Source: Chitinophaga pinensis
GTDB taxonomy: Bacteria > Bacteroidota > Bacteroidia > NS11-12g > UBA955
Reading direction: 5' to 3'
Assembly: GCA_945877575.1 (NCBI GenBank)
Contig: CAMDUE010000014.1
Span: 1-64,000, forward strand
DNA length: 64,000 bases
The position numbers were made by a program, and so were the translations under genes. Of the stretch, positions 517-18,114 are shown one piece after another. Position 1 is the stretch's first letter, and each line of letters begins with the position of its first letter. The notes beneath the pieces are model-generated. The model ran no database searches. It was not told where the DNA came from and saw nothing but the letters and a program-made list of their open reading frames with translations.

Positions 517-1908
517 TTATTTGCCGATACAAAACCTACTAAAAATATTCCCCAATATCTCCTCAGTATCTATCTCGCCTGTGATTGCGGCCAAGGCGCG
601 GATGCCGCTGCGCAAATGAAAAGACAATAGGTCGCCGGTCATTTGGTATTCGATGCCCTCCAAAAGTTTTTCAAGTTCTTGGGAGCACTGATCAAGAGCG
701 TCTGCGTGGCGCGCGTTGGTGACTACCGTTAAGCCATCCAAAGAACGCAATTCTGCCGTGAATCGCTGTGACAGCTCTGCGGTTAATTGCTGTACCGATG
801 TGCGATCTTTGGCAACAACACGAAGTAATTCGCCTTCTTGCCCCTCATGTTCCTTCATCAATTCAGAGTTGGAAAACGATTGAATGTCCCCAGAAAAAAC
901 ATCCATCTTATTAGCCACTAACCAGATCCGTGTGGTCTTTTCGCGGAGCATTTTTAGGTCTGACTCAAATTCATCGAGGGTCAGTTCTGACGGATCAAAC
1001 AAATACAGTGTTGCACCGCCCGCTTCGATGTGTTTGAAGGTGCGGTTGATTCCCTCGCGTTCTATCGAATCGCTGGCCTCTCGGATGCCTGCCGTGTCAA
1101 CCAAACGAATGCGGACATCTCCCAGATTCAACACCTCTTCTATCGCATCGCGTGTGGTGCCCTTGATGTCGCTCACTATGGCCCGATCTTCGTTCAAAAG
1201 GGCATTAAAGAGCGTGCTTTTTCCGGCGTTGGGACGTCCGGCTAGAACCAAAGTAAATCCTTTTTTCAAAGCATTTCCAAGGGCGAAAGAATCTCTCAAA
1301 TGATCAACCCTTTGCTTCAAGTCAAGAACCAGGTTCTGCAGTTCAGCGCGCGAAGCAAATTCAACGTCTTCCTCGCCGAAATCAAGTTCCAATTCTATCA
1401 AGGAAACAAACCAAAGCAACTTATCTCGCAGCTCTGCAATGTCTTTGGAAAACCCTCCACGAAGCTGCTTCAACGCCTGTTCGTGGGCAAACTTGTGCTC
1501 AGCAGCTATGACATCGGCAACGGCTTCGGCTTGCGCCAAATCAATCTTCCCGTTGAGGAAGGCTCTTTGGGTAAACTCACCAGGGTCAGCCATCCGAATT
1601 CCCACCGACAACAAAGCTTTAAGCAAACGTTGTGCAATGTAATCGCTTCCGTGGTAGGCTATTTCGACCGAGTTTTCACCGGTGTAACTTTTGCCATCCC
1701 TGAAAACCGTTATGAGCGACTCGTCTATAAGTCCCTCGGAATCAAAAATCCGCCTTAAAACCGCCCTGTGAGATTCAACCTCATCTAGGGGTTTCTTTAG
1801 CAATGCATTAACTTTCAATAAACTTTCAGCACCAGAAACGCGTATAAGTCCTACAGCTCCAATACCGGATGCGGTGGCGATGGCGGCGATACAATCTTGG
1901 TGCTTCAT
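517..1908 (-). CDS. mnmE: tRNA modification GTPase MnmE (TrmE/ThdF)
   Basis: MnmE, with MnmG, builds the carboxymethylaminomethyl group on U34 of certain tRNAs. The 463-residue protein has the standard order: N-terminal tetrahydrofolate-binding domain beginning IAAIATASG, helical domain with an inserted G domain, and the C-terminal CIGK whose Cys is essential in the family. G motifs are GRPNAGKS near residue 224, GTTRD near 250, DTAG near 271 and NKMD near 335. I chose the ATG at 1908 over an ATG 15 bp upstream because MKHQDCIAAIATA fits the family start and a TATTTTTG promoter element at 1913-1920 ends only 4 nt before it. The gene is divergent from fhs. Its 3' end abuts the putative integrative element. 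Confidence 0.97.
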   Translation of the reverse strand: MKHQDCIAAIATASGIGAVGLIRVSGAESLLKVNALLKKPLDEVESHRAVLRRIFDSEGLIDESLITVFRDGKSYTGENSVEIAYHGSDYIAQRLLKALLSVGIRMADPGEFTQRAFLNGKIDLAQAEAVADVIAAEHKFAHEQALKQLRGGFSKDIAELRDKLLWFVSLIELELDFGEEDVEFASRAELQNLVLDLKQRVDHLRDSFALGNALKKGFTLVLAGRPNAGKSTLFNALLNEDRAIVSDIKGTTRDAIEEVLNLGDVRIRLVDTAGIREASDSIEREGINRTFKHIEAGGATLYLFDPSELTLDEFESDLKMLREKTTRIWLVANKMDVFSGDIQSFSNSELMKEHEGQEGELLRVVAKDRTSVQQLTAELSQRFTAELRSLDGLTVVTNARHADALDQCSQELEKLLEGIEYQMTGDLLSFHLRSGIRALAAITGEIDTEEILGNIFSRFCIGK

Positions 1909-1912
1909 TCTG

Positions 1913-1920
1913 CAAAAATA
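1913..1920 (-). promoter_or_regulatory. -7 promoter element of mnmE
   Basis: Read on the minus strand this is TATTTTTG, a match to the Bacteroidota -7 consensus TAnnTTTG. It ends 4 nt before the mnmE ATG, implying an mRNA that is leaderless or nearly so. Confidence 0.65.
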
Positions 1921-1946
1921 CATCGAAAATATTAGTAACTTGCCGT

Positions 1947-3611
1947 ATGCTCACCGATATAGAAATTGCGCAACAGGCCCAGTTAAAGCCTATTGCTGAG
2001 ATAGCTCGTGAAATTGGAGTTGATCAAGATTCATTGGAACCTTATGGAAAATACAAGGCCAAAATTGAGTTTTCTCAAGATGCCCAAAAACGCGCTAAAA
2101 GCAATCTCATTCTAGTCACGGCCACCACGCCCAACAAAAGCGGCAGCGGAAAAACCACCACTTCGGTTGCCCTCACACAGGGATTGCAAAAAATTGGTAA
2201 AAAGGCCATTGTAGCTCTTCGCGAGCCGTCTCTCGGGCCTTGTTTTGGGATGAAAGGAGGAGCTGCTGGCGGCGGATACTCACAAGTACTTCCCATGGAA
2301 GACATTAACTTGCACTTTACAGGCGATTTTCACGCCATTACAGCCGCTAATAACACCTTGGCTGCCCTAGTAGACAACTATCAGTACAATCACCGCGGAA
2401 AGACCACGCAATTGAAATCCGTGCTTTGGCGCCGCGTTCTTGACGTCAACGACCGTTCTCTCCGCAACATCAATACCGGTCTCGGAGGAAGCACTAACGG
2501 TATTCCCCAAGAAACTGGCTTCGACATCACTCCTGCCAGCGAAATCATGGCCATCCTTTGCCTTTCAACCTCGTTTGAGGATTTGAAAAGACGCTTAGGA
2601 CAGATTCTTTTGGGTTATACTTTCGAGGGACATGCATTCCGCGTAGCTGACTTGGGCGCTGTGGGTGCATTGGCCATCTTACTCAAAGACGCAATAAATC
2701 CAAATTTGGTTCAAACCTTAGAAGGTGGGGCAGCATTTATCCACGGTGGACCTTTTGCGAATATCGCACACGGATGTAACAGCATCATGGCAACTTACGC
2801 AGCCATGGAACACGGTGAGTACGCCATCACCGAAGCTGGATTTGGCAGCGACCTCGGCGCTGAAAAATTCTTAAACATAAAATGTCGAGCGGCTGGCATT
2901 ACACCCAAAGCCACAGTCTTGGTTACCACAACCCAAAGCTTAAAACTTCACGGTATGGTCCCAGAATCCGACATCAAACTTCCCAATAAAGAGGGTTTAG
3001 CAAAAGGATTACTCAACTTACAAAGACACGTTGAAAATCTTCAAAACTTTGGCCAATCAGTGATTGTCGCATTGAATCAATTCCACTTTGACACCGAAGA
3101 AGAATTGCAAATGGTGGAAGACTACTGCAAACAACTAGGTGCCTCTTTCGCCAGAAACCAAGGATTCGCCAAAGGCGGAGAAGGCGCGATAGAATTGGCT
3201 AAAAAAGTAGTTGAAATAGTAGAAAATAATCCATCGAAACCCATTCAACACACATATGAGTTAAATCAATCGGTTGAAGAAAAACTCACTCAAATTGTTC
3301 AGAAAGTATATGGCGGCGCGAAAGTCGTTCTCGGTGAAAAGGCTCAAAGCAGCTTAAAACAAATCAAAGAACTGGGCGCAGATCAATGGCCCGTTTGCAT
3401 TGCCAAAACCCAATTCTCGTTCACAGACAACGCCAAAAAAGTAGGCATTGAAAAAGACTTCACCATCACCATTGACAACCTCATCATCAACGCTGGAGCA
3501 GAGTTCATAGTAGCCGTAGCTGGCAGCATCATGCGCATGCCGGGTTTACCCAAAGATCCAGCCGCAATGGGAATGGATATCAATGATGGTGTGATTACAG
3601 GGTTATCGTAG
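1947..3611 (+). CDS. fhs: Formate--tetrahydrofolate ligase
   Basis: Cytosolic one-carbon enzyme: formate + ATP + tetrahydrofolate gives 10-formyl-tetrahydrofolate. The 554-residue length is typical. The family P-loop TPNKSGSGKTTT lies at residues 61-72, and the conserved block GGAAGGGYSQVLPMED follows near 104-119. I chose the ATG at 1947 (MLTDIEIAQQ) because this matches the family N-terminus; frames open further upstream overlap the mnmE promoter. The sequence TAACTTGC just before it is a weak promoter-like match. The stop codon TAG lies inside the first unit of the heptamer array that begins at 3608. Transcription probably ends at the hairpin at 3819-3850. Confidence 0.97.
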   Translation: MLTDIEIAQQAQLKPIAEIAREIGVDQDSLEPYGKYKAKIEFSQDAQKRAKSNLILVTATTPNKSGSGKTTTSVALTQGLQKIGKKAIVALREPSLGPCFGMKGGAAGGGYSQVLPMEDINLHFTGDFHAITAANNTLAALVDNYQYNHRGKTTQLKSVLWRRVLDVNDRSLRNINTGLGGSTNGIPQETGFDITPASEIMAILCLSTSFEDLKRRLGQILLGYTFEGHAFRVADLGAVGALAILLKDAINPNLVQTLEGGAAFIHGGPFANIAHGCNSIMATYAAMEHGEYAITEAGFGSDLGAEKFLNIKCRAAGITPKATVLVTTTQSLKLHGMVPESDIKLPNKEGLAKGLLNLQRHVENLQNFGQSVIVALNQFHFDTEEELQMVEDYCKQLGASFARNQGFAKGGEGAIELAKKVVEIVENNPSKPIQHTYELNQSVEEKLTQIVQKVYGGAKVVLGEKAQSSLKQIKELGADQWPVCIAKTQFSFTDNAKKVGIEKDFTITIDNLIINAGAEFIVAVAGSIMRMPGLPKDPAAMGMDINDGVITGLS

Positions 3612-3817
3612 CGGGTGCCGGGTACCGGGTACCGGGTAGCGGGTACCAAGTACCGGGTACCAAGTACCGGGTACCAAGTACCGGGTAGCGGGTAGCGGGT
3701 TTCGGACCACGGACCAAAGACCACGGACCACGGACCACAGACCACAGACCACAGACCACAGACCACAGACCACAGACCACAGACCACAGACCACGGACCA
3801 TTGACCATTGACCAAAA
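3608..3817. repeat. 30-unit heptamer tandem array (array 1)
   Basis: The 210 bp parse into exactly 30 consecutive 7-bp units with no break in register. The first 14 are of the type GTACCGG, GTAGCGG or GTACCAA; the last 16 are ACCACAG, ACCACGG, ACCATTG and similar, including eight identical ACCACAG in a row. The first unit contains the fhs stop codon, and the last abuts the A-tract of the terminator. Open frames on the minus strand that read as repeats of L-W-S-V-V-C-G are a by-product of the array. A second array with shared units lies at 34557-34941. Confidence 0.95.
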
Positions 3818-3853: not shown

Positions 3854-6800
3854 TTAATTAGGTCTTATCAAGTTGACCGAACCATTTACACGGTTAATCT
3901 TCTCTTTACCCTTGAATCTGTATTCCATTTGGTAGAAATATGTACCTGAAGGCGCATCTGGACCGTCGTTGTTAATTTGACCGTTCCATTTAACCTTAGG
4001 ATCTTCACTCTTGAATACTCGCTCACCCCAAAGGTTGAAGATACGAATCTCGAAGTGATCTTGACCTTGCAATGGCACGTCAAAGTAATCATTCTTACCG
4101 TCTTGGTTACCTGGTGTAAAGACGTTTGCTAGATAAACAAACAAATCAACAGTTACAGGCTTACAAATAGTGTCTTCGCAACCGGTTGAATTCTTTGCGA
4201 TCAAACAAACCCAATATACCCTAGTACTATCGTATGACCATTCAACTTTAACATCATTAGACTTCAAATCTTGCATGAAGGTTCTTGGCAGACTATTAGC
4301 AATGTCATTGCTATGTCCAAATCCCCAACGCCACTCAACACCATTGATATCCTTACGAGTAAATACGAAGTCAGGCTTGTTTGATGAATCAATATCAAAG
4401 TCTGCATAAACTGAGTCTACCATAAAGGTTAAACTATCCATATCCGACGGACACCAAGGACGTGGATGTTGTGGATCGTAATCAGCATAGTGATAAACGG
4501 TATAGTTACCTGGATCATCAAACATTCTTGCATAACGCTTTGAACCTGTAGTAACCGTATCCGTCACATAAGTACCGAGCTTCTTACTGTAGTGCACAAA
4601 TTTCCACTTGTAAACTTTCAGAATGGTATCAGAATTATCAATGAATACATTCGAGTCACCCGGACAAATAGATGCCCGCAAGATAGTTCCTCTGACTGAG
4701 TCCCTCGGAAGAACCAAAACTTGGAATTTCTGTTGGAATGAATTGGTATCAGGGAATATTGCTGGGCAATATCTGAAAGTATTAGGAGGTAAGAACAAGG
4801 TATCATACTGTTGTAGGTAAATTTCATACAAACCAGCTTTGTTATAAGTATGCCAAACCTGGTTTTCAGTAGTATCATTCTTAATGTTACCATCACCGAA
4901 GTACCAAGTCCAAACTGCACCTTTTGTAGCTGAGTCCGACATGTTACTGAACTCAATAGAGTCTCCCACACAAATTGTTACAAAGTTTCCAGCCTTTGTG
5001 GTATACTCAAATTTAGGACGTGGACCAGGGATCTTCACCCATTTAAAGAATGTATCTGAACAACCTTGTTCTGTAAACAACACGTATTGAATCTTAAACC
5101 AACCATTTCTAGTGTATTTATGACCTATACGTGGAGGAAGTCCTTCGTCGTTAAACTTCAACTTTTCATAATAGTTATCATAACCATCACCCCAATCAAT
5201 GAACCATTTGTTTATGTAGTCACAAGACATTGGAGTCGCTCCTGTACAATTCTTCATTGCCCAACTGCATGGATCATGTAGAATAGAGCTATCAAAGAAT
5301 TCAATGGTAGTATTACAACTTGGTACCTCTAGGTTCAAGCCGAACTTCACATCCAAACGAGTAATGAATAAACGTTTAGTCATGGTATCCTTACAACCTG
5401 TAGAGTCTCCAGCTACATTTCTAAAGGTATAAACACCAGAGTCATTTTTGTAGTACAAATCACTTCCACCACCCAATTGAATGTATGGATTGTTCGTTGA
5501 ACCAACCGAAGTTCCACCGTATGGCGATCCACCAAAAATAGTCACTTTATTGGTAGTATCGTCATCACCTTTATTCCAATCCCAACGAGTTCTTGGCTCT
5601 AAATTCTTACCGTAACGATTTGCATCTTTCCAATAATCGTATTGGGTTGGGTTTTCTAATGGATTAGGATTCCAGTAGTAATTCCAATCCCACTGACCAT
5701 TATTCTGAGGGTCAACGTTGAAGTAACGATAATCTGGTGCAAACACCAAACTCTCACCTTGATCTTGACAAACAATAGAATCCGTAAACTTATCTTGTAT
5801 CATCGCAAAACCTACGATGATGGGTTGTCCCCAAATAGCTTCACACTTTCCATTGTTTGAGGTCATACTCAAACTCATGATATGGAACCCTGAATATTCA
5901 GGAACAAAGCGATAAGCTCTAATCTTTTGTTTATTCGCTGGATTAGTCCAAGTATCTATGGGAGTAATCACAGAATCTCTGAAATGCAACACAAAAGTTG
6001 AATCTGGATCTGGAACATAATAGTATCTAATGTCTTTACCAAAACCGGTAGTATCAATACAACCATAAGCACCTGTTTTAGGCTGACCAATAACTCCAGT
6101 ATCATTCCAAATCATCTTGAAAATTTGAGCATCAGTCAAAGAGAATGGGTCAAATCCGCGATCTTCCAATTTCTTCTTGATATTTTCCCAAACTTTGGAA
6201 ACGTCAGCAGCCATGGTATACTTTCTGATTTCAGCAGTAATTATTGTATCTGGACCGCCATATACTTTAGCTTGACCATCATACCAATCATTTGAACATG
6301 CTCCCTGGTAAGGTCTTTCACGACCTCTGGTTTGAACAATGTAATTATAAATATACTTTTTATTCTGACCAGGTACGTTCTTTTGATAATGGAAATAATC
6401 CTCTTGAATGAATGAATTCCAGCTTCTTGCATAGTATGGACCTGCATCACCAGTTGACAACATCCATCTCATTGATTTCAAGTCACGGGTATTGGTCTTG
6501 TTAGCAGCGATTTCGCGCACAATGACCTCATCCCACTTACAAATCTTGCGGAATCCGCTTGGACCAGGAGTTGGCTTTACAATTTCAGATGCAGGATCTA
6601 TCAATGGGAAACAAGCAAACTTATCATAGTAATGGGTATCTTGACACAACGGACGCTTACCATTATTACCATTCCACTTAGTCCATAAAGTAGCACCCGG
6701 AACTTTTTGAATTCCGTTACCCACTATAATACCAACAGTTACACACTGAGTCTTGGTATTACAAACTCCAGAGGCAGGATATTGCCAAGAGAATCTGCTT

Positions 6801-9424
6801 GGTACACTTCCGCTCAAGTTATAGGCTGTATTCCACCAAGGACCGGGAGGATTCAACGGACGTCCACCTGGGTTTAATCCATTCAATGGCACCCAACCAT
6901 TTGGATTACAGAATGTATCGTAATTGATTTGAACCTCAGAAAATGAACATCCAGGTTTCAAATCACTCAATATAAACGTGACACCATAGGTTGGATTCGC
7001 AGCCCCTAAACACTCAACGGCGTCCTTAATCAATCCACTTCCAACACCACCAGCGTTTGCATGCAATAATGCCAATTGCTTAACTGCTTCACTTTCACAC
7101 TTCAACACATGGCAGGTATCTCTATGATTTAATTTCACCTGGTTACAAGATGGAATGCGTGAATAATACAGCTCTCTGAAACGGTTATAATTAATGAAAT
7201 AATCAAAACCAGCCTTACCATTTGGAATGCGTTTGAAAGAATCAATGATGTTCAGTTTCTCTCCCTTTGCCCAACGAATCTTCATCAAATTCCTTGGTAG
7301 TGTATCGGGTTTCAAGTATAGTGTAAATAGGTATTCAAAACTATCCGTTTTGCTCTTAATCAATATATTTGAATTGGGCCTCATTAAAGTATCTGTCGGG
7401 CCCACAATCATTTGTTCTGAACCTTTGACACCAGCATAAATAGTATCCTTTGCTCCTAAACGAACCTTGATGTAATCTTCCATGTAACGCTCAGCCGGAC
7501 CCAATACCTTTTTCTCCAATCTCCATATTGGTTTCACTTTTGAACCAGTAGATTGATATGTGGCTGAGTCTTTTTCCCATCTACCAGTCCAAACACCCGT
7601 TGCCGGATTAAATGAATAATTTGGATTCCAAACAGGAGGGATAGCCATCAACGAATCAAAATAAACATAGAATATAGAGTCCGCAAAAACAGGAACTCGC
7701 TTACACAATCCGTTGCTATCTATGAAAATCGCATCTTCCATCGGACTTCTCTTAAAGTCTGATAGCATCACTAAATCCCAAGAGCGATAGTAGTGAAAAG
7801 GAATAGAGTCATGTGAATATGCACAGTTTACCGTAACGTTTTTATTTTTTACAACGTCAGTGGTACATTTCGATCCAAAATTATCTCCGAAATCCCACAA
7901 GCGAACAACACAATAATTTTCCCTTTTCAATGGATCGTTTCCTCCAGCAGGCGAAACACCACCACTAGGTACATATACTGTAGAGTCACCACGGGTGTTT
8001 CTTTCTTTGCGCTTTGGCGCTTCCCAAATTTGAATAGGCTTCTTTGTCACGTTATTCCATTGGAAAGTATGTCCCAATGCAGTAGTACCATTCTTATAGA
8101 ATGTACTATCATCATCGGTATAATCTTTATCGTTGTGATAGAACGTAGAATAGTTTCTAAATCCTACCGTATCCATAACATCTTTCGGACACTGATATAC
8201 CTGCCAATCAGGAATTCGGTCACCCATAATGTCAATGGTTGAATTAGGTCCTAATATAATAATGGTATCATAAACTTCACGGTCACCACAAATTGGATGC
8301 TTGTATTGAAGTTTAACCAAAAACGGACCTAGACCAGAGAAATCGTGACTTGGCGACCAAGTTCTGTTGTTAAAATTCTGAGGACCTGTATTAGGGTCAC
8401 CAAAAGTCCATAATAAACCACTCGCTCCTGATGGAACTATATTGGTTCTAAAATCAATGGTTGGTTCAGAAATACAGGTACTGTCTTTACTTGCTAATAT
8501 GATTACATTAGAAGCAAAAACAGTTGCAGTTGCTGTCATAGAGAATGAATCTTTACAACCATCCTTGGTACGAATAATCAATTTAGAATTGTAGACACCT
8601 TGTCCATAAAACCATTTTTTCAAGTCTGGACCCCATGTTTTGGAAGTAATATTTGGGTCTGCTTCCATCCAAACGGTTCCGTCTCCCCAATACCACCATA
8701 TTGAGTCAACCGCGTTAACACCAATACGAGAAACATTTTTCACCAACGCCAATACTGAATCACACTGAATAGGCTTATTACTTGTAAAGGCAGCTCCAAT
8801 CTTTTCACGTACAAAAACTGCACCCACTAAATTTTGAGTATCAGTACATCCGTTTTTATCTATTGCCTCAACAAACAAATCAAACGGACCTCCGCGTACG
8901 TCCTTAATTGAAAAACAAATTTTGTTTGGCAACACTGATGGTGGAAAGTCATAATCAAACAACTGTCCGTCAGAAACCAAATATTGCGTGCGAATCACAG
9001 GCGACCCACTTGGAGTTTCGGTGCTATCAATGAAACAGAACAAGTTGTTCTGAAAACATTGACTGTCCATAGTAACAATACTCATTTTGATCTTTGGTTT
9101 ATCCTTGATAACCAAGTTCACCGTGCTCGTACATTGCTGTCCATTTGACAAAGTAGTAATGTAAGTAGCTTTGGCATTGCCTGCCTTTGAAAATGCAAAC
9201 GTAGCATTCTGAGGACCGTTGTTGGTAAAATCTGTACCTCCATCGTTGAATGTCCATTTGTGATTGCTACCTTGAGCACTTCCTACGAAAGTAATGGGTG
9301 CACCTACGCACAAACTACCGTCGAAAGTAATGTTACAAGTTTGAGCTGTCAGTTGAAACGCCGAAAAAACCGTCACTACAAATAGTGACAGCCAGCCTTT
9401 CAGATTTGAGGAAAATCCTTTCAT
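3854..9424 (-). CDS. Giant secreted PKD-rich protein with type IX type B (CHU_C) sorting domain
   Basis: About 1856 residues. I chose the ATG at 9424 because it begins a good signal peptide (MKGFSSNLKGWLSLFVV, cleavage after LTAQ); an in-frame ATG 99 bp upstream would add a charged extension. Repeated PKD-like signatures such as WTFNDGG, WWYWGDGT, WTFGDP, WTWYFGDG and WRWGFGH are spread along the chain. The last ~85 residues (NVFTPGNQDGKNDYF, then FNLWGERVF and APSGTYFY) are the gliding-motility-associated CHU_C domain (TIGR04131 type), which routes proteins through the type IX system to the surface. There are many Cys and aromatic residues. It is the last gene after sigA-like and anti-sigma-like genes and ends in a strong terminator. 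It is probably a surface adhesin or matrix protein; the substrate is unknown. Confidence 0.88.
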   Translation of the reverse strand: MKGFSSNLKGWLSLFVVTVFSAFQLTAQTCNITFDGSLCVGAPITFVGSAQGSNHKWTFNDGGTDFTNNGPQNATFAFSKAGNAKATYITTLSNGQQCTSTVNLVIKDKPKIKMSIVTMDSQCFQNNLFCFIDSTETPSGSPVIRTQYLVSDGQLFDYDFPPSVLPNKICFSIKDVRGGPFDLFVEAIDKNGCTDTQNLVGAVFVREKIGAAFTSNKPIQCDSVLALVKNVSRIGVNAVDSIWWYWGDGTVWMEADPNITSKTWGPDLKKWFYGQGVYNSKLIIRTKDGCKDSFSMTATATVFASNVIILASKDSTCISEPTIDFRTNIVPSGASGLLWTFGDPNTGPQNFNNRTWSPSHDFSGLGPFLVKLQYKHPICGDREVYDTIIILGPNSTIDIMGDRIPDWQVYQCPKDVMDTVGFRNYSTFYHNDKDYTDDDSTFYKNGTTALGHTFQWNNVTKKPIQIWEAPKRKERNTRGDSTVYVPSGGVSPAGGNDPLKRENYCVVRLWDFGDNFGSKCTTDVVKNKNVTVNCAYSHDSIPFHYYRSWDLVMLSDFKRSPMEDAIFIDSNGLCKRVPVFADSIFYVYFDSLMAIPPVWNPNYSFNPATGVWTGRWEKDSATYQSTGSKVKPIWRLEKKVLGPAERYMEDYIKVRLGAKDTIYAGVKGSEQMIVGPTDTLMRPNSNILIKSKTDSFEYLFTLYLKPDTLPRNLMKIRWAKGEKLNIIDSFKRIPNGKAGFDYFINYNRFRELYYSRIPSCNQVKLNHRDTCHVLKCESEAVKQLALLHANAGGVGSGLIKDAVECLGAANPTYGVTFILSDLKPGCSFSEVQINYDTFCNPNGWVPLNGLNPGGRPLNPPGPWWNTAYNLSGSVPSRFSWQYPASGVCNTKTQCVTVGIIVGNGIQKVPGATLWTKWNGNNGKRPLCQDTHYYDKFACFPLIDPASEIVKPTPGPSGFRKICKWDEVIVREIAANKTNTRDLKSMRWMLSTGDAGPYYARSWNSFIQEDYFHYQKNVPGQNKKYIYNYIVQTRGRERPYQGACSNDWYDGQAKVYGGPDTIITAEIRKYTMAADVSKVWENIKKKLEDRGFDPFSLTDAQIFKMIWNDTGVIGQPKTGAYGCIDTTGFGKDIRYYYVPDPDSTFVLHFRDSVITPIDTWTNPANKQKIRAYRFVPEYSGFHIMSLSMTSNNGKCEAIWGQPIIVGFAMIQDKFTDSIVCQDQGESLVFAPDYRYFNVDPQNNGQWDWNYYWNPNPLENPTQYDYWKDANRYGKNLEPRTRWDWNKGDDDTTNKVTIFGGSPYGGTSVGSTNNPYIQLGGGSDLYYKNDSGVYTFRNVAGDSTGCKDTMTKRLFITRLDVKFGLNLEVPSCNTTIEFFDSSILHDPCSWAMKNCTGATPMSCDYINKWFIDWGDGYDNYYEKLKFNDEGLPPRIGHKYTRNGWFKIQYVLFTEQGCSDTFFKWVKIPGPRPKFEYTTKAGNFVTICVGDSIEFSNMSDSATKGAVWTWYFGDGNIKNDTTENQVWHTYNKAGLYEIYLQQYDTLFLPPNTFRYCPAIFPDTNSFQQKFQVLVLPRDSVRGTILRASICPGDSNVFIDNSDTILKVYKWKFVHYSKKLGTYVTDTVTTGSKRYARMFDDPGNYTVYHYADYDPQHPRPWCPSDMDSLTFMVDSVYADFDIDSSNKPDFVFTRKDINGVEWRWGFGHSNDIANSLPRTFMQDLKSNDVKVEWSYDSTRVYWVCLIAKNSTGCEDTICKPVTVDLFVYLANVFTPGNQDGKNDYFDVPLQGQDHFEIRIFNLWGERVFKSEDPKVKWNGQINNDGPDAPSGTYFYQMEYRFKGKEKINRVNGSVNLIRPN

Positions 9425-9526
9425 AATTGAACGTTTTTCTGCTAAAATGTCAAAAATAAACGATTTGCGCCGGAAACCCAAAGCACAAGCATCGTTTGTT
9501 TCAGTATATTTCTTCATTTTCATATT

Positions 9527-10375
9527 TTATCTAATTAAATTTAACACCCATTGGTCGCCTTCCGACACTTGCGTCTTTTTGTTTTTAGTCTTCAATATCA
9601 CCTTATAAGTTCCTGCCGAACAAGGAATTCCCAAGTGATCTCCAGCCCATTTTCGATTCTTATCTGTGGTACCAAACACCTTCATTCCTGCACGATTTAA
9701 GACTACTATCTCAAGAAAATCTGAAGTATTTAATTCCACAAAAAACGAGTCGTTTATACCATCTCCGTTGGGCGTAAAAACATTTGGTTTGACATCATTA
9801 TCCGCACCCCAATGTTCAGGCAAACCAAAGGTTTGAATTTCTTCTTTCTGTTTATCCATCAGATCATTTTTGACATTAATCCGACTTTCACTAATGCCCC
9901 GAACTGGAATATTTTCCTCAACATTTAGCGCCGAAAAATCATTTTCCGCCAATTCTTCTTCAACATCTTCCACCATCACATCTACAGTAGGTTCACCAAA
10001 TGTGTAATCAATGGTTTGAATAACACCTCTAATAGTATCTGAATAAACCTCCTGAGGAGCTACCAGTTTTTCAGGCATCAAAATTTCTTTAATTTCTTCT
10101 TTCTTTTCGGGGGATATTTTCACTTGTTTAAGTTCATCATCTCCCATCCATAAAACACCGCCAACCGAAATTCCAACTATAGCTGTAACACCTGCAATTT
10201 TCAATCCCAATGCACCACCCCAAAAAGTTGATGTGGATTGAGCCACTGCTTGTTGTGATACACCTGTAGTTAACTGATTTTGAACAGCCTCCATCATTCC
10301 TGATGGAGCAGAAACTTGAGCATCACTCAATTTTGACCGAAATAATTCATCGATATGTTCCAAACCTTCAGTCAT
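9527..10375 (-). CDS. One-span anti-sigma-like protein with C-terminal CHU_C sorting domain
   Basis: 282 residues. Residues 1-50 are cytoplasmic-looking and resemble the N-terminal segment of Bacteroidota anti-sigma-type proteins (IDELFRSKLSDAQVSAP). A single membrane segment lies near 53-77 (LKIAGVTAIVGISVGGVLW). An acidic linker of about 115 residues follows, and residues 196-282 (NVFTPNGDGINDSFF to SAGTYKVILK) match the CHU_C domain found at the C-terminus of type IX cargo. There is no cleavable signal peptide, so the sorting domain should stay tethered in the periplasm. The start codon overlaps the end of the sigma-factor gene by 8 bp, implying translational coupling. The anti-sigma role is inferred from position and topology. 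Confidence 0.72.
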   Translation of the reverse strand: MTEGLEHIDELFRSKLSDAQVSAPSGMMEAVQNQLTTGVSQQAVAQSTSTFWGGALGLKIAGVTAIVGISVGGVLWMGDDELKQVKISPEKKEEIKEILMPEKLVAPQEVYSDTIRGVIQTIDYTFGEPTVDVMVEDVEEELAENDFSALNVEENIPVRGISESRINVKNDLMDKQKEEIQTFGLPEHWGADNDVKPNVFTPNGDGINDSFFVELNTSDFLEIVVLNRAGMKVFGTTDKNRKWAGDHLGIPCSAGTYKVILKTKNKKTQVSEGDQWVLNLIR

Positions 10376-10904
10376 TTTTCAATCGTTGTTGAAGCCATTT
10401 TCTGGCCTTAAAAAGTTGTGTTTTACTGGTACTCTCTGATATCCCCAAAGAACTTGCAATTTCTTGGTGAGTAAATCCTTCAATTGCATACAAGTTAAAA
10501 ACCGTTCTATAACCAAGTGGGAGCTTCGACAATAGTTTTAGTAGGTCGTTGGCTTGCAATTGATCCGCTGCAGTATTGAACTGAACCTCTACAGATTCAT
10601 TTGATTCCAAATCATCAAATAGTTTAGATTTATCCTTTCTTATAGCATCAAGACATTGATTCACTGTTATGCGCTTCATCCAGCCCTCAAATGAGCCTTC
10701 AAACCTGAAATCAGGTAACTTTTGAAAAATGCGTATGAGTGATTCTTGAAACATGTCCTTCGCTTGATCATCTGAAGATGCGTACCGACAACAAATGGCA
10801 AAAAGTTTGGATGAAAACAATTGATAAAGTTGATTTTGTGCCGATGGCAATCCATCGATACAACTCTTGATCAACTCTTGTTCTTGTTCCGTACTCAATG
10901 ACAT
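10368..10904 (-). CDS. ECF-type RNA polymerase sigma factor
   Basis: 178 residues, normal for group 4 (ECF) sigma factors. Region 2 lies near residues 25-92 (DMFQESLIRIFQKLPDFRFE, GWMKRITVNQCLDAIRK) and region 4 near 118-175 (LPLGYRTVFNLYAIEGFTHQ, then the HTH EIASSLGISESTSKTQLFKAR). It is the first gene of a three-gene unit with a membrane anti-sigma-like protein and a giant secreted protein. The gap to the upstream delta' gene is 68 bp, so it may have its own promoter. By analogy with other sigma/anti-sigma pairs, it probably directs transcription of its own operon; that is inference. Confidence 0.93.
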   Translation of the reverse strand: MSLSTEQEQELIKSCIDGLPSAQNQLYQLFSSKLFAICCRYASSDDQAKDMFQESLIRIFQKLPDFRFEGSFEGWMKRITVNQCLDAIRKDKSKLFDDLESNESVEVQFNTAADQLQANDLLKLLSKLPLGYRTVFNLYAIEGFTHQEIASSLGISESTSKTQLFKARKWLQQRLKND

Positions 10905-10972
10905 TTGATGAGTTCATTTCCTCAAATTTCCTTTAAGATGCGTATTCACTTCTCAAAGTTGTCTGAGATTGA

Positions 10973-13075: not shown

Positions 13076-14191
13076 TTAATCTTCTGATCCTAATCCAATA
13101 CGAATTCCGAAAGAATGAACACCATTAAATGGATTTGTTGCGCGGTAATTGTAATCTAAAGAAACCACATTACCATCTTTACCGTGCCAATCATAACTCA
13201 AACCAGCAAACGGACCAGTAAACGCCGATGGGCGGGTCTCCTCATTAAAAATACCCTCTTGATAGCAATATCCTCCGCGTAACATAATCATGTCTTTGTA
13301 TGCATACTCCAAAGAAAGTGTTGTTTGGTTCGTAATGAAAGAGTGATTTGTAAAAGCAAATCCTACAGTCAAACGATTATCATACAAACTTGGTACTTTA
13401 TCTAATCTCAAATCATAAGAAGCAGCAATGTTCAATAATGCGGGCAACTTCACCACGTCTGTTTTTACTTGCAAGGTTTTCTCAAACGTTCCATTTTGCA
13501 AAGTAGCTTTGTAACTCAATCCATCTCCGCTGTAGCTCATGTCTGGACCTATATTCTTCACAGATACGCCAAACTTGAAATCATTTCTTTTCAACTTCGA
13601 AGCATTTGCAAATAAAGTAGTGGTGTACTGAACACCTGCATCCAGAGCCAAACCCGATGCACTTGCATCTGGAATACCTTCAGTCACCATTCGCGCTGTA
13701 ATACCCGCCGAAATACTATTACTGAAACTCTTACCATAAGAAACGCCAATATTGGTCATATTCACTCGGTAAGTACCAATACCACCATAAGGATTGTCTT
13801 CCGTAGTTGTTTGAATGGGTTGCACACCGAACTGCATAACTTGAACACCTAATGTCCCTGCAGTACCGTCTTCTCCCATTTTTACTGCAAAACCAAGATT
13901 ATTGATTCCTATTCCAGAACCCATTAACCATTCTGTTCTTGCGAAAACCAATTCTGTTTTGTTGGTCATACGATCCAAACCACCAACGTTCATAAACATC
14001 GCTTCTGAACCTCTAACACCGCCTGCACCTGACCAACCTAAACCACCTGAACGAGCCCAACCATTAATAGTCAATTGCATCGCGCCTGCTTGTCCTTGTC
14101 TTTCAGGATTTCCAGCAAAAACTGAAGTAGCCATCAATCCTAAGCAAAGGGCAGAAAAACCAGACTTTATATGTGTTTTATTTAATTTCAT
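13076..14191 (-). CDS. PorV/PorQ-family outer-membrane barrel protein
   Basis: 371 residues with a signal peptide ending at SVFAGNPERQ. The pattern of a glycine-rich N-terminus (GQAGAMQLTINGWAR, SEAMFMNVGGLDRM) followed by alternating beta-strands and a final strand GVHSFGIRIGLG is that of the PorV/PorQ/UPF0164 family of FadL-like barrels. PorV itself carries folded type IX cargo from the SprA translocon to the attachment complex. I prefer the ATG at 14191 to the TTG at 14200. It is third in an operon with a TonB-type receptor and a large secreted protein, suggesting a dedicated PorV-like partner rather than the housekeeping PorV. Exact paralogue is not certain. Confidence 0.75.
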   Translation of the reverse strand: MKLNKTHIKSGFSALCLGLMATSVFAGNPERQGQAGAMQLTINGWARSGGLGWSGAGGVRGSEAMFMNVGGLDRMTNKTELVFARTEWLMGSGIGINNLGFAVKMGEDGTAGTLGVQVMQFGVQPIQTTTEDNPYGGIGTYRVNMTNIGVSYGKSFSNSISAGITARMVTEGIPDASASGLALDAGVQYTTTLFANASKLKRNDFKFGVSVKNIGPDMSYSGDGLSYKATLQNGTFEKTLQVKTDVVKLPALLNIAASYDLRLDKVPSLYDNRLTVGFAFTNHSFITNQTTLSLEYAYKDMIMLRGGYCYQEGIFNEETRPSAFTGPFAGLSYDWHGKDGNVVSLDYNYRATNPFNGVHSFGIRIGLGSED

Positions 14192-14217
14192 TTTTGTCAA
14201 TCTTAAACTTAAAACTA

Positions 14218-17200
14218 TTAATATGAATCCAAGTCAATGGCGTGCATGATTCCGTACCAACGAATCACTTTTTCACCTAAACGAGGGGCTTTAACATGTA
14301 TCAAATACAAACCGCTCGCAATAGGCACATTGTTCTGATTCTTCAAATCCCACTCCAAATAAGTCGCTTCATCAGCCTTTTTAATCTTACGAATGGTATT
14401 ACCCGCCATATCAAAAATAGTAACTGTACACTCCGGAGGAAGATTGGTAATCTTTACACGTGAATCAATTGGACTGTTCTCATATTTGCTGTATCCTCTG
14501 TAAGGATTAGGTACTACGTTTACCATATCCAAGTTCTTTGTACCTATCTTATCTGAAACCTTAGGTGCTATTTCAGCGCCATCAAATTCGTACATTGGGC
14601 GATCATTATTTCTAGTGTCACCAGTATTGAAAGTAGTATAAGCTTTAGAAACTCTTACGTTGATTGTAACTTCTGTTGGAGGAATACCATCTGTCATAGT
14701 AAATCCAGGAGCCAAATACGTTGGAATAACCCAATTCACCTGAGACAACAAACGAAACTTATCACTATTCGGGGGGCTCGCGCCAGCAGTGGTTGATTGC
14801 AATCCTTTACGGAATCTATCAAAGTAAGTATCTTCTGGACCATAGTATCTTTCTCCAATCACATTTCGAGTGATACCGTGTCTACCGGTTCCGAAAATAT
14901 AAATGAAGTGTTTACCTCCAATGGCAGGATAATTTCCATTGTCGTTATAAACTGTTGATGTTGGATTCCAAATCATGTCTCTACCGTTCTCACCTGGTAA
15001 ATAACTATCCTCACCGAATCCAATGTTCAAACGCTCTCCAGTTTCCAAGTTGATAGCATAACCAGGAAACCAACTCAAACCTTGACTACCTGCTTCATCA
15101 GCGAAGTTCTGATCTTTTGATGTTCCGAAACGCATATTGAACTTAGACATATTTCCTTCTGTTCCACTCTTTACTTCGTCATCACCCATTTCCATTACTA
15201 CGGCACGAGTCCATTTTGATTTATCTGGAGTAATAACCAGTTGGAAGCTGTTCAATTCAGGTAAAGGATTCTGCAACCAGGATGTATTACCGCTCCATGC
15301 AAAACCATACGTATTTTGTCCGGTAGCCGCACTGTAAGAAGCCCTAGCTGTCAATCCATAAGGTGCAATTCTTCCGTTCCAAATACGCTCGTAAGCTTGA
15401 CTTGGATCCAAATAATTTCCATTGACCCCAATAAAGTCATGGGTATATGGGTCAAAAGGAGTAATACCTCTACCTGCGCTACCAGCTCTTATCCAGTTAT
15501 TAAACCCTTGAGATGCATCATTATCAACAACCGCCGTTAACCATTGTTTACCATTATCAGCCCATTTAACATCCCAATTGATAAAGGAGTTGGTAGGGTC
15601 AGCAGTTACATCCTCTGAAGGGTTATACACCTGATTAATTTCAACGCTCAATCCCCAATCAGCCAATGTTTCTTTAGTAGCATTGTAGTTACCCGCACGT
15701 CCTTGAATGGTTTCAAAGCGAATTCCAATAGTTGTATCTGAAAAAATGGTATCATTTCCATTAATACTATCTTTTTTCACCAAGAACCAACCGGTATTCC
15801 TAGTCATAGAATCACGCAAACCAGTATTGTTAGAAGGCGTACGCTCTTTCAAAACCAATTCAAACTTGGCATTAGGTACTTTCAATGGGTCGATAACCTT
15901 AATATTCACAGGACCTGCACCACCCATATACTTAGGCTTCGCAACAAATCCAGTTCTAAGAATGTCTGCAACTGTACCTTCAGTAAATTCTAATGACATT
16001 CCACCGTTACCACGTCCACTGATTCGAGTCAAACTCGGACCTGAACCGTAAGAACTTTGAAGCTCAGTACCAAAGTTTTCAGGTTCAGTAGCATGCGGAG
16101 TAGCGCGATATACTTTAATATTTCTTCTACCAGCAAGGAATTGATTTGGATCTATTTGCATAGTGTCATCCGCCAAAATTGCATAACTCAATACCATGTA
16201 GTAATAGTTTCTAAAGTCTATCAATGAAGTATTCGCATTGGTAGCAAAAAGATCATTTTTGATGCTGAAAGAGTGTTGAACACCTTTATCAGAACCGTCT
16301 ACTTTTTCTACTGGAACCATTTGTGACAACTTAGGATCAAACACTTTGTTAATGATTTGACCACGATTGTTCTTCATATCACACTGGAACATCAAACGCG
16401 CCTTATCAATGTTATCTAAGTCACCGGTATTCACCGTTGCATCTTTCAACTGGTAAATCAAATAACCTTCAAATTTATAGGTCAAATCTTTGTTATTCGC
16501 ATCCTTGTATTTTTCAGTGTAGTTTTCAACTTTATCGGAATTGGTATTCAAGAATTTCAAAACCAACTCTTCATGTAGCTCTTGGATTTCAATATCTGGA
16601 GCATTAGGACCGTCCAAAATTTTGAAATTATTGTTAAACAATGTTTGTGCTTTATCTGAAGCCAACTTCAACAACTGCAATGAACCAGCTGCACCTTGAC
16701 AAGGCGCGCCTGCTCCACCACTGGTAGTTCTTGCCCAAACAACACCTACGGTAATTCTTTGAACTTGACCTGGACGCAAAATAAATGGACCAGTTGATTG
16801 CAAGAAACGACGGTCAGCCGGACGGTTACCCGCGCTCTTCTCATCCCAACATTCACCGGGGAAATCAGGATCTGTTCCACCAGAGAACATATAATTAGTT
16901 TGACGGGTTCCACCAAAACCATTACCACCAAAGGTTACGTTTTGACCTTGCTTCCACTTACCTCTTAAGAAGTTATAGAAACTATTTGGATTACCTCTAT
17001 CAGGGTTTCCAGAAACTGGGTCAGAGTTATTATTGTAGTACATGAAGTGACTCATACCCATCTGATTGCCTGCAGTATCTGTAGGTCCTTCAAAATAATC
17101 TACACCTACTGTAGGTGGATTCAAGCCATAACCCAACACACCTTCGTCATCATCGTCACCATTGAAGCAATATCCCAAAGATCTTCCTACGTCACAACCT

Positions 17201-18114
17201 ACATAGTCGTCAGAGTAGTTACCCAAGTCGGCATCTACCCATTGCCCCATGTAACAATCATTCACCGTTGTGAAACCGCGGTTGATGATTTTAGTTGAGT
17301 AGAAAGTCATATTGTTAACCTCATCATTGGTAGCAAATGCAAATGCAGTGGTTTGACATTCAATACCAATGGGTTGACCTGATGATTCATTGTGCACATT
17401 ACCTTTATCGTTATAAACCCACCAGATAAACATATCTGGTTGTCTGTCAACTCCGTTTTCAGTATTGGGTCTGCGTTCATCCAATACAGGATGTTCTCCG
17501 TCAAACGGATTATAAACTCCATCGTTATTCACCACTTTGTAAGGTGCCAGATAATCAGATTCAGCTCCCAATTTTACTGAACGGTCACTTCCACCGGGCC
17601 ATTCTCTTATTCCCGCACTGATGTTGGTGTACTTTGAATTCTCAAAATCTTCCAACTCATCACGAGTCACCTTCCACATACGATCGTAAGACTTACATCG
17701 CAATGGATCAGTAGAAGCTGTAGTGGTATCTAATGGACCTGGCCAAAAGTCTACTCCAAACTGACGGTAAGTCATGGCCGCCAACTTTAAGTTTCCTCCG
17801 TTGTCTTTACCTCCAATCCAGATTGCACCAGAAAACAAAGAGTGTTTTCTAACCGCATTCGGGTCATTTACTTTAGGCACTTCGTATTTTGGGTTATTTA
17901 TATCCCACCACATATCACCGCCGTTCAACAATTTTGTACGAACGTTATTGATATCTAAGTCAGCAGACTGTGAAGCGGGCTCACAAGTGTTAGCCAATGA
18001 ACCAGCACGCTTGCTAACTTTAAGAGTTGAACGACCATTGAAGTTTTCAATGGGTCTAGCAAACACCTGCGAAGCAATCGCAAATCCTAATGCTATAATT
18101 CCAAATTTTTTCAT
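14218..18114 (-). CDS. Large secreted protein, type IX-like C-terminus, partner of TonB receptor
   Basis: 1298 residues with a clear signal peptide (MKKFGIIALGFAIASQVFA). The N-terminal third has the motif SGAIWIGGKDNGG and many aromatic and Asp/Asn-rich stretches including an acidic GDDDDEG loop. The C-terminal ~100 residues (VVPNPYRGYSKYE, VTIFDMAGNTIRKI, ASGLYLIHV) form an Ig-like fold of the FlgD/type A sorting kind, with a non-standard tail ending AIDLDSY. It lies 22 bp from the TonB receptor gene and 26 bp from the PorV-like gene. No enzyme motif was recognised. I infer that it is a surface protein held by, or working with, the receptor. Confidence 0.72.
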   Translation of the reverse strand: MKKFGIIALGFAIASQVFARPIENFNGRSTLKVSKRAGSLANTCEPASQSADLDINNVRTKLLNGGDMWWDINNPKYEVPKVNDPNAVRKHSLFSGAIWIGGKDNGGNLKLAAMTYRQFGVDFWPGPLDTTTASTDPLRCKSYDRMWKVTRDELEDFENSKYTNISAGIREWPGGSDRSVKLGAESDYLAPYKVVNNDGVYNPFDGEHPVLDERRPNTENGVDRQPDMFIWWVYNDKGNVHNESSGQPIGIECQTTAFAFATNDEVNNMTFYSTKIINRGFTTVNDCYMGQWVDADLGNYSDDYVGCDVGRSLGYCFNGDDDDEGVLGYGLNPPTVGVDYFEGPTDTAGNQMGMSHFMYYNNNSDPVSGNPDRGNPNSFYNFLRGKWKQGQNVTFGGNGFGGTRQTNYMFSGGTDPDFPGECWDEKSAGNRPADRRFLQSTGPFILRPGQVQRITVGVVWARTTSGGAGAPCQGAAGSLQLLKLASDKAQTLFNNNFKILDGPNAPDIEIQELHEELVLKFLNTNSDKVENYTEKYKDANNKDLTYKFEGYLIYQLKDATVNTGDLDNIDKARLMFQCDMKNNRGQIINKVFDPKLSQMVPVEKVDGSDKGVQHSFSIKNDLFATNANTSLIDFRNYYYMVLSYAILADDTMQIDPNQFLAGRRNIKVYRATPHATEPENFGTELQSSYGSGPSLTRISGRGNGGMSLEFTEGTVADILRTGFVAKPKYMGGAGPVNIKVIDPLKVPNAKFELVLKERTPSNNTGLRDSMTRNTGWFLVKKDSINGNDTIFSDTTIGIRFETIQGRAGNYNATKETLADWGLSVEINQVYNPSEDVTADPTNSFINWDVKWADNGKQWLTAVVDNDASQGFNNWIRAGSAGRGITPFDPYTHDFIGVNGNYLDPSQAYERIWNGRIAPYGLTARASYSAATGQNTYGFAWSGNTSWLQNPLPELNSFQLVITPDKSKWTRAVVMEMGDDEVKSGTEGNMSKFNMRFGTSKDQNFADEAGSQGLSWFPGYAINLETGERLNIGFGEDSYLPGENGRDMIWNPTSTVYNDNGNYPAIGGKHFIYIFGTGRHGITRNVIGERYYGPEDTYFDRFRKGLQSTTAGASPPNSDKFRLLSQVNWVIPTYLAPGFTMTDGIPPTEVTINVRVSKAYTTFNTGDTRNNDRPMYEFDGAEIAPKVSDKIGTKNLDMVNVVPNPYRGYSKYENSPIDSRVKITNLPPECTVTIFDMAGNTIRKIKKADEATYLEWDLKNQNNVPIASGLYLIHVKAPRLGEKVIRWYGIMHAIDLDSY

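Follow-up and report, generated by a model that had tools for sequence, protein, structure and literature searches.

The locus described here raises the question of what a sorting domain of the type IX secretion system (T9SS) is doing at the end of a protein that appears to be tethered in the inner membrane and whose gene overlaps that of an ECF sigma factor. The window analysed, i.e., the whole stretch of 64,000 nucleotides from a contig assigned to Chitinophaga pinensis (CAMDUE010000014.1; GTDB lineage Bacteroidota; Bacteroidia; NS11-12g; UBA955), contains this protein, called the regulator below, encoded between the sigma factor and a giant protein that carries a type B C-terminal domain (CTD) (Table 1). 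The regulator start and the sigma stop overlap by 8 bp (10368–10375), and the open reading frame of the giant, as listed (3854–9523, 1889 aa), begins 3 bp past the end of the regulator; the first-pass annotation had pointed out both the overlap and the giant CHU_C protein downstream, and both stand. The best NCBIfam match of the sigma protein, PRK11922, is under its cut-off. The genome of the window encodes SprA and six PorP/SprF proteins and gives 29 CHU_C matches, and no PorP/SprF gene adjoins the three-gene locus of the window. A gene of the PorV/PorQ family (13076–14200, reverse strand; 119.5 bits, cut-off 90) is adjoined by a gene for a 1298-aa protein (14218–18114, reverse strand), the C-terminus of which weakly matches PorZ, the two together being found about 2–7 kb upstream of the sigma gene. 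On the other side, a short tandem-like repeat (3383–3808; VVCGLWS and TRYPVPG when translated) is located between the giant and a gene at 1869–3611, whose product we take to resemble formate-tetrahydrofolate ligase.

Table 1. Positions, in the window, of the three genes, the parts of their products and the putative promoter elements.
Feature	Position	Strand	Evidence
ECF sigma factor, 178 aa	10368..10904	-	Sigma70_r2 48.7 bits, Sigma70_r4_2 66.1 bits (Pfam)
CTD-capped anti-sigma-like membrane protein (regulator), 282 aa	9527..10375	-	ORF; CHU_C 51.9 bits; kept architecture
Regulator N-terminal cytoplasmic module, residues 1–40, predicted sigma-binding	10256..10375	-	Alignment; AF2 model; ECF sigma neighbour
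Regulator single transmembrane segment, ~residues 57–78, predicted N-in	10142..10207	-	Hydropathy 1.85, charge rule
Regulator disordered acidic periplasmic tether, residues 79–195	9791..10141	-	pLDDT mostly <50
Regulator CHU_C / type B CTD-like domain, residues 196–282	9530..9790	-	CHU_C match; pLDDT 86–97; N-R-A-G
Giant Ig/PKD-repeat type B CTD protein, likely start	3854..9424	-	Internal ATG, promoter box 5', Ig-like model
Giant CHU_C domain, N-L-W-G	3902..4132	-	Pfam
TATTTTTG, matching the Bacteroidota TAnnTTTG -7 box, 5' of giant	9451..9458	-	Consensus from the accessible part of PMC9723704
ECF-type promoter GACAACT-N18-TCTT, 5' of sigma gene	10935..10963	-	Upstream-region comparison

The anatomy claimed earlier for the regulator (one membrane span, no cleavable signal, a terminal CHU_C domain) agrees with hydropathy analysis and Pfam searches. 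The head has the family form (I/F)DxLFRxxLxxAxxxPPxGxWExV in the alignment and contains two predicted helices (residues 5–16 and 26–38) in the AF2 model; it is predicted, from sequence, to bind the ECF sigma factor. There is one hydrophobic segment, its top 19-residue window having the value given in Table 1, and in the AF2 model this stretch is not a helix. No N-terminal (cleavable Sec) signal peptide was found in the regulator, where this sole hydrophobic segment starts near residue 57, behind the kept head. The tether comprises 117–118 residues in the window, including 30 D/E and 12 K/R in 117 residues, and has a median length of 207 residues in 54 relatives, a survey in which the membrane segment was wrongly placed in one protein (L169). 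Tethers are the least conserved part of the regulators, and no conserved cleavage motif was seen in them in the family alignment. A Pfam search of the regulator gave no match to the FecR domain at E up to 1. A PKD domain before the CTD was considered as a general feature of the regulator family and rejected, PKD_4 being present in only 5 of 35 members and absent from the window copy.

The first-pass annotation had staked its idea on the survival of the three-gene order in relatives, and the order is kept. Around short CHU_C matches, 40 loci were taken from 97 genomes of the same order; 34 of them have an ECF sigma gene followed directly by a gene for a one-span CHU_C protein of 280–420 aa and then, where the contig allows, by a gene for a CHU_C giant of 1600–1936 aa. 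A second sampling by the giant alone, which avoids the bias of selecting for short CHU_C proteins, gave 80 loci on named MAG contigs of uncultured Bacteroidota, and the genes for a sigma factor and a CHU_C membrane protein are directly upstream of the giant in 64 of them; the 16 loci lacking them comprise 10 at contig ends and 6 second giant copies. The N-terminal module is present in 63 of the 64 good genomes of the order, and the three-gene arrangement is far beyond chance. The second giant copies that have neither sigma factor nor regulator (L213, L219, L220, L223, L239 and L241) come from assemblies in which the other giant copy belongs to a complete trio.

Searches beyond the order used a profile of the first 90 residues only and covered 395 genomes of the phylum and 395 genomes of the class, with matches in 77 of the former (E up to 0.01) and 159 of the latter (E up to 1e-5). 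Phylum-wide, an ECF sigma gene immediately precedes that of the head in all 29 loci, and a sigma gene is directly upstream in 60 of 60 loci of the class-wide sample outside the order, which supports, at the level of gene neighbourhood, the sigma/anti-sigma pairing put forward earlier. The C-termini of the 29 phylum loci include an OMP_b-brl_2 barrel in 10 cases and CHU_C in one, the rest being mostly short or without an assigned domain; none of 19 further phylum loci outside the order (L322–L340) is of the CTD type, and several of these are false head matches such as FecR. CHU_C is found on 50 of the 60 class loci, a proportion that is not an unbiased rate, as the 60 were hand-picked, mostly for strong matches, from about 150 matches listed; the CTD form is the commonest outer end in the class sample examined, and the 50 loci belong to 15 further families. 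A CHU_C protein (637–1865 aa) is encoded directly after the regulator in 6 of the 36 outside-order loci that have over 2 kb of sequence left. Since the giant adjoins few pairs outside the order, the old core is the sigma factor with the CTD-capped regulator, the giant being a regular neighbour in this order only.

One such CTD-capped pair without a giant lies in genome G148, outside the order (L321:2924–4297), with what is presumably an mreB-like gene upstream. In the genome of the window itself, contig C9 (G000:C9; L161:2963–4781) contains another ECF sigma gene, and the gene after it encodes a head and membrane span with a barrel-like C-terminus (OMP_b-brl 25.6 bits, below the cut-off of 28.7); a type A sorting-domain protein is encoded after this pair. 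At L325:1220–2101, a similar regulator encoded next to a sigma gene ends in TonB_C (27.7 bits, cut-off 24.6), and this end might contact TonB-dependent receptors. These forms, together with the CTD-capped one, allow the module to be read, by sequence comparison, as a set of putative anti-sigma factors that are tethered to the outer envelope and differ in an exchangeable outer end (barrel, TonB_C, CTD). The co-occurrence of SprA was tried as an indicator of a T9SS link and was uninformative: SprA is found in 383 of the 395 class genomes, so genome co-occurrence cannot decide the matter; the 12 genomes without SprA include none of the 50 CTD-type genomes.

The CHU_C match of the regulator (Pfam, residues 197–272) scored 51.9 bits against a cut-off of 27, and its score with the NCBIfam type B model TIGR04131 was just below the cut-off (32.3 versus 35). 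The domain, which AF2 modelled with confidence (pLDDT in Table 1), resembles two CTDs of T9SS substrates in structure, 8glk_D (72 aligned, Z 8.9, rmsd 2.0) and 8gl8_D (73 aligned, Z 8.0, rmsd 2.4); other Ig-like folds score likewise, and PorZ is the second Foldseek match of the regulator model. The alignment, from which near-identical CTDs were taken out before counting, revealed the R-aromatic-G motif (R[WYF]G) in only 1 of 104 tethered CTDs, versus 81 of 88 CTDs of cargo and giants (giants 43/44, other cargo 28/33, further cargo 10/11). The core positions are kept in the tethered CTDs (T/S in 101, W in 102 and Y/F in 100 of the 104), with conservation about as in cargo. In a tree of 192 CTDs, 103 of the 104 tethered domains cluster on one side together with 13 of the 88 others (support 0.825). 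In the accessible part of the study of Flavobacterium johnsoniae (PMC12618676), each of five conserved motifs of the type B CTD is required for secretion, mutation of any one blocking it; R-W-G would be one of these five. The window regulator reads N-R-A-G where cargo reads N-R-W-G and, since the R and G remain, it may retain some capacity for export. Loss of the cargo hallmark with retention of the fold residues suggests that the tethered CTD is probably a docking or sensing domain and not an export signal.

The comparisons given above bear on several other explanations. An annotation based on CHU_C only would make the regulator an ordinary type B cargo protein with a mis-called start and no part in regulation. 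Such a protein would hardly have a conserved cytoplasmic head in place of a signal peptide, a sigma gene adjoining it at every one of the 29 phylum and 60 class loci, and a lost hallmark; conservation at the sequence level has largely refuted this reading, which is barely credible, and the earlier statement that the membrane-tethered regulator is not ordinary cargo holds. The first-pass annotation had instead proposed a sensor of export load, in which the tethered CTD competes with cargo for the type IX machinery. In a sharper form of this idea, the CTD would bind SprA or a shuttle of the PorP/SprF kind, competing there with cargo such as the giant, and the load would be reported by whether it is free or bound. 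The kept fold, like that of CTDs bound in the SprA translocon, a tether long enough in principle for the outer membrane (118 residues in the window, median 207), the type B CTD giant downstream in the order and the binding of type B CTDs to PorP/SprF proteins, as far as the available text of PMC9143113 describes it (six such genes are present in the genome), are all consistent with this. However, R-W-G is lost in 103 of the 104 tethered CTDs, secretion requires each of the five type B motifs, and outside the order a giant is missing beside most pairs of the CTD type. Because the tethered CTDs have lost R-W-G, simple competition for the same recognition surface is argued against, and the load-sensing explanation as a whole appears somewhat unlikely.

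It is less likely still that the CHU_C fold is a recruited Ig-like domain, ligand-binding or structural, without a present link to the T9SS. The tethered CTDs do form a divergent subfamily, the same head carries other outer modules, and many unrelated Ig-like folds give similar scores, but the fold residues are conserved to about the same degree as those of cargo and the best short structural matches include T9SS substrate CTDs. Contact of the regulator CTD with the T9SS is possible, given the retained fold and the T9SS background of the genome (SprA, PorP/SprF proteins and CHU_C matches). Regulated proteolysis is the common fate of membrane anti-sigma factors, and a switch of this usual kind could be supposed here as well, in which the tether is cleaved on induction, the C-terminal part is exported, the head is degraded and the sigma factor is released; the CTD would then clear the released part from the periplasm. 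The lost cargo hallmark and the absence of a conserved cleavage motif in the aligned tethers speak against this and, in the one system covered by the accessible part of PMC10202324, secretion by type B signals required over 200 residues, while the regulator has about 200 outside the membrane; cleavage followed by export is thus quite improbable. The reading of the tethered CTD as a docking or sensing domain is preferred below.

The giant contains PKD and CHU_C domains (Pfam; CHU_C at residues 1798–1874) and scores just over the cut-off with TIGR04131 (36.1 versus 35). Its motif, N-L-W-G, is the sole exception to R[WYF]G among the 44 giants. The true start is likely an internal ATG at 9424, which the signal peptide follows closely, and the 33 codons 5' of this ATG overlap the TAnnTTTG box. 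A conserved peptide 'KSxIFE' before the giant was rejected as protein, being this promoter box read in frame. Modelling of the first 587 residues from the likely start predicted a signal helix and, behind it, Ig-like beta domains, and the eight best Foldseek matches of this N-terminal part are fragments of GhpA, the grappling-hook protein of Aureispira (E 5e-13 to 9e-12), with low TM-scores (0.25–0.29); the plain reading of the model is that the giant would be a surface adhesin-like repeat protein. Giants share 55–68% identity with most of their own family and about 29% with the other family, and the identity of the regulators is much lower, about 22%.

Comparison of 65 upstream regions, reduced to 53 by a redundancy filter, indicated the motif RRCAACY-N18-TCW 5' of the sigma gene in 43 of the 53, mostly 45–63 bp before the sigma ATG and with a spacer of 18 in 43 of 43; the mean expectation in resampled sequence is 0.26. 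We take this motif to resemble the −35/−10 pair of an ECF promoter, and autoregulation of the sigma operon is implied by the conservation of such a site at its promoter. In genomes G022 and G038, where there is a gap between the sigma and regulator genes, a second copy of the motif precedes the regulator; of the 50 outside-order pairs with a CTD, only 7 have the exact site. A large regulon was considered and rejected, as the strict motif revealed no wider set of targets in 24 genomes (91 sites, about 15 of them the operon's own, versus 74 for a reversed-pattern control); a looser motif in the window's own genome was swamped, with 55 matches versus 133 in the control. The claim that the sigma factor controls the giant stands in part: the giant begins directly downstream and the ECF-type promoter of the operon is conserved, but the giant has a housekeeping-type box of its own, TAnnTTTG, which is the sigma-A consensus of Bacteroidota according to the accessible part of PMC9723704, and it adjoins the regulator in few loci outside the order.

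Taken together, the data make it probable, if by no means certain, that the regulator is an anti-sigma factor of the overlapping ECF sigma factor, laid out like the dual membrane-spanning anti-sigma (Dma) proteins but with a CTD-derived outer module replacing the barrel. The cytoplasmic head would hold the sigma factor, and the inner-membrane helix and the long disordered tether would reach to an outer-envelope module; this CTD-derived module would stay unexported and dock to, or sense, a partner in the outer membrane or the T9SS. When that contact is lost or altered, a signal may pass along the tether, through proteolysis or a conformational change, and free the sigma factor, which would then transcribe its own operon via RRCAACY-N18-TCW and the giant by read-through, while the TAnnTTTG promoter of the giant would provide its basal expression. 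The pairing of the genes, the layout of the regulator, the identity of its domains, the loss of R-W-G from the tethered CTDs and the conservation of locus and promoter are observed; that the head binds the sigma factor, what the CTD docks to, which signal acts and how the sigma factor is released are the parts of this scheme that we infer. Perhaps, and this is offered tentatively, an anti-sigma family spread through the class uses an export-incompetent T9SS sorting domain as a pseudo-signal probe on an inner-membrane tether, reads the state of the translocon or shuttle (occupancy or pulling force) and sets the transcription of surface cargo. If so, the pseudo-signal, barrel and TonB_C forms would together make up a modular family of anti-sigma factors tethered to the outer membrane.

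This pair, widespread in the class Bacteroidia, is a concrete candidate for a means by which Bacteroidota sense the T9SS and the outer surface, as it may let the cell monitor its own surface or secretion machine. The head-plus-tether module bears at least three kinds of outer module. The CTD form can readily be taken for secreted cargo and, among short proteins annotated as 'type B sorting domain-containing' or 'gliding motility-associated C-terminal domain', many probably act as regulators and not as cargo. No description of a CTD-bearing anti-sigma factor was found among the open-licence papers searched.

Several known systems share some of these features. The type B cargo of the cargo and shuttle pairs SprB/SprF and PG1035/PorP, as portrayed in the accessible parts of PMC9143113 and PMC12618676, has a CHU_C / TIGR04131-type CTD; the giant fits such cargo, while the regulator, over the cut-off for CHU_C and just below that for TIGR04131, differs in being membrane-tethered, without a signal peptide and without R-W-G. 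The PorA-PorXY-SigP system of Porphyromonas gingivalis also has a CTD-bearing protein that acts on a T9SS-tied ECF sigma factor but, in the account given by the available text of PMC7712824, PorA is made with a signal sequence, arrives at the cell surface and works via a two-component system, whereas here the predicted anti-sigma factor itself bears the CTD. The pair THC0290_1774/1773 of Flavobacterium psychrophilum SM6 is likewise an ECF/anti-sigma pair, and its own promoter motif is found before T9SS genes too; its −10 box is CGT (both from the accessible part of PMC9723704), in contrast to TC(T/A) here. The closest likeness is to the Dma proteins, which the accessible part of PMC13088901 presents as confined to Bacteroidota, recently described in Bacteroides and ending in a barrel. 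By their described plan, they share with the regulator a head that binds the sigma factor (predicted for the regulator), one membrane helix (likewise predicted), a long disordered tether and an outer-envelope module, and they are encoded beside the cognate ECF sigma factor, Dma2 in a three-gene operon (PMC13088901); the outer module is a beta-barrel there and a type B CTD-like domain here, where the third gene encodes a giant type B CTD protein. The regulator is kept apart from the Dma class because the defining barrel is absent. The same head, by profile, occurs fused to outer-membrane barrels in other Bacteroidota and, by analogy, the Dma class would explain the plan of the regulator better than the idea of the first-pass annotation.
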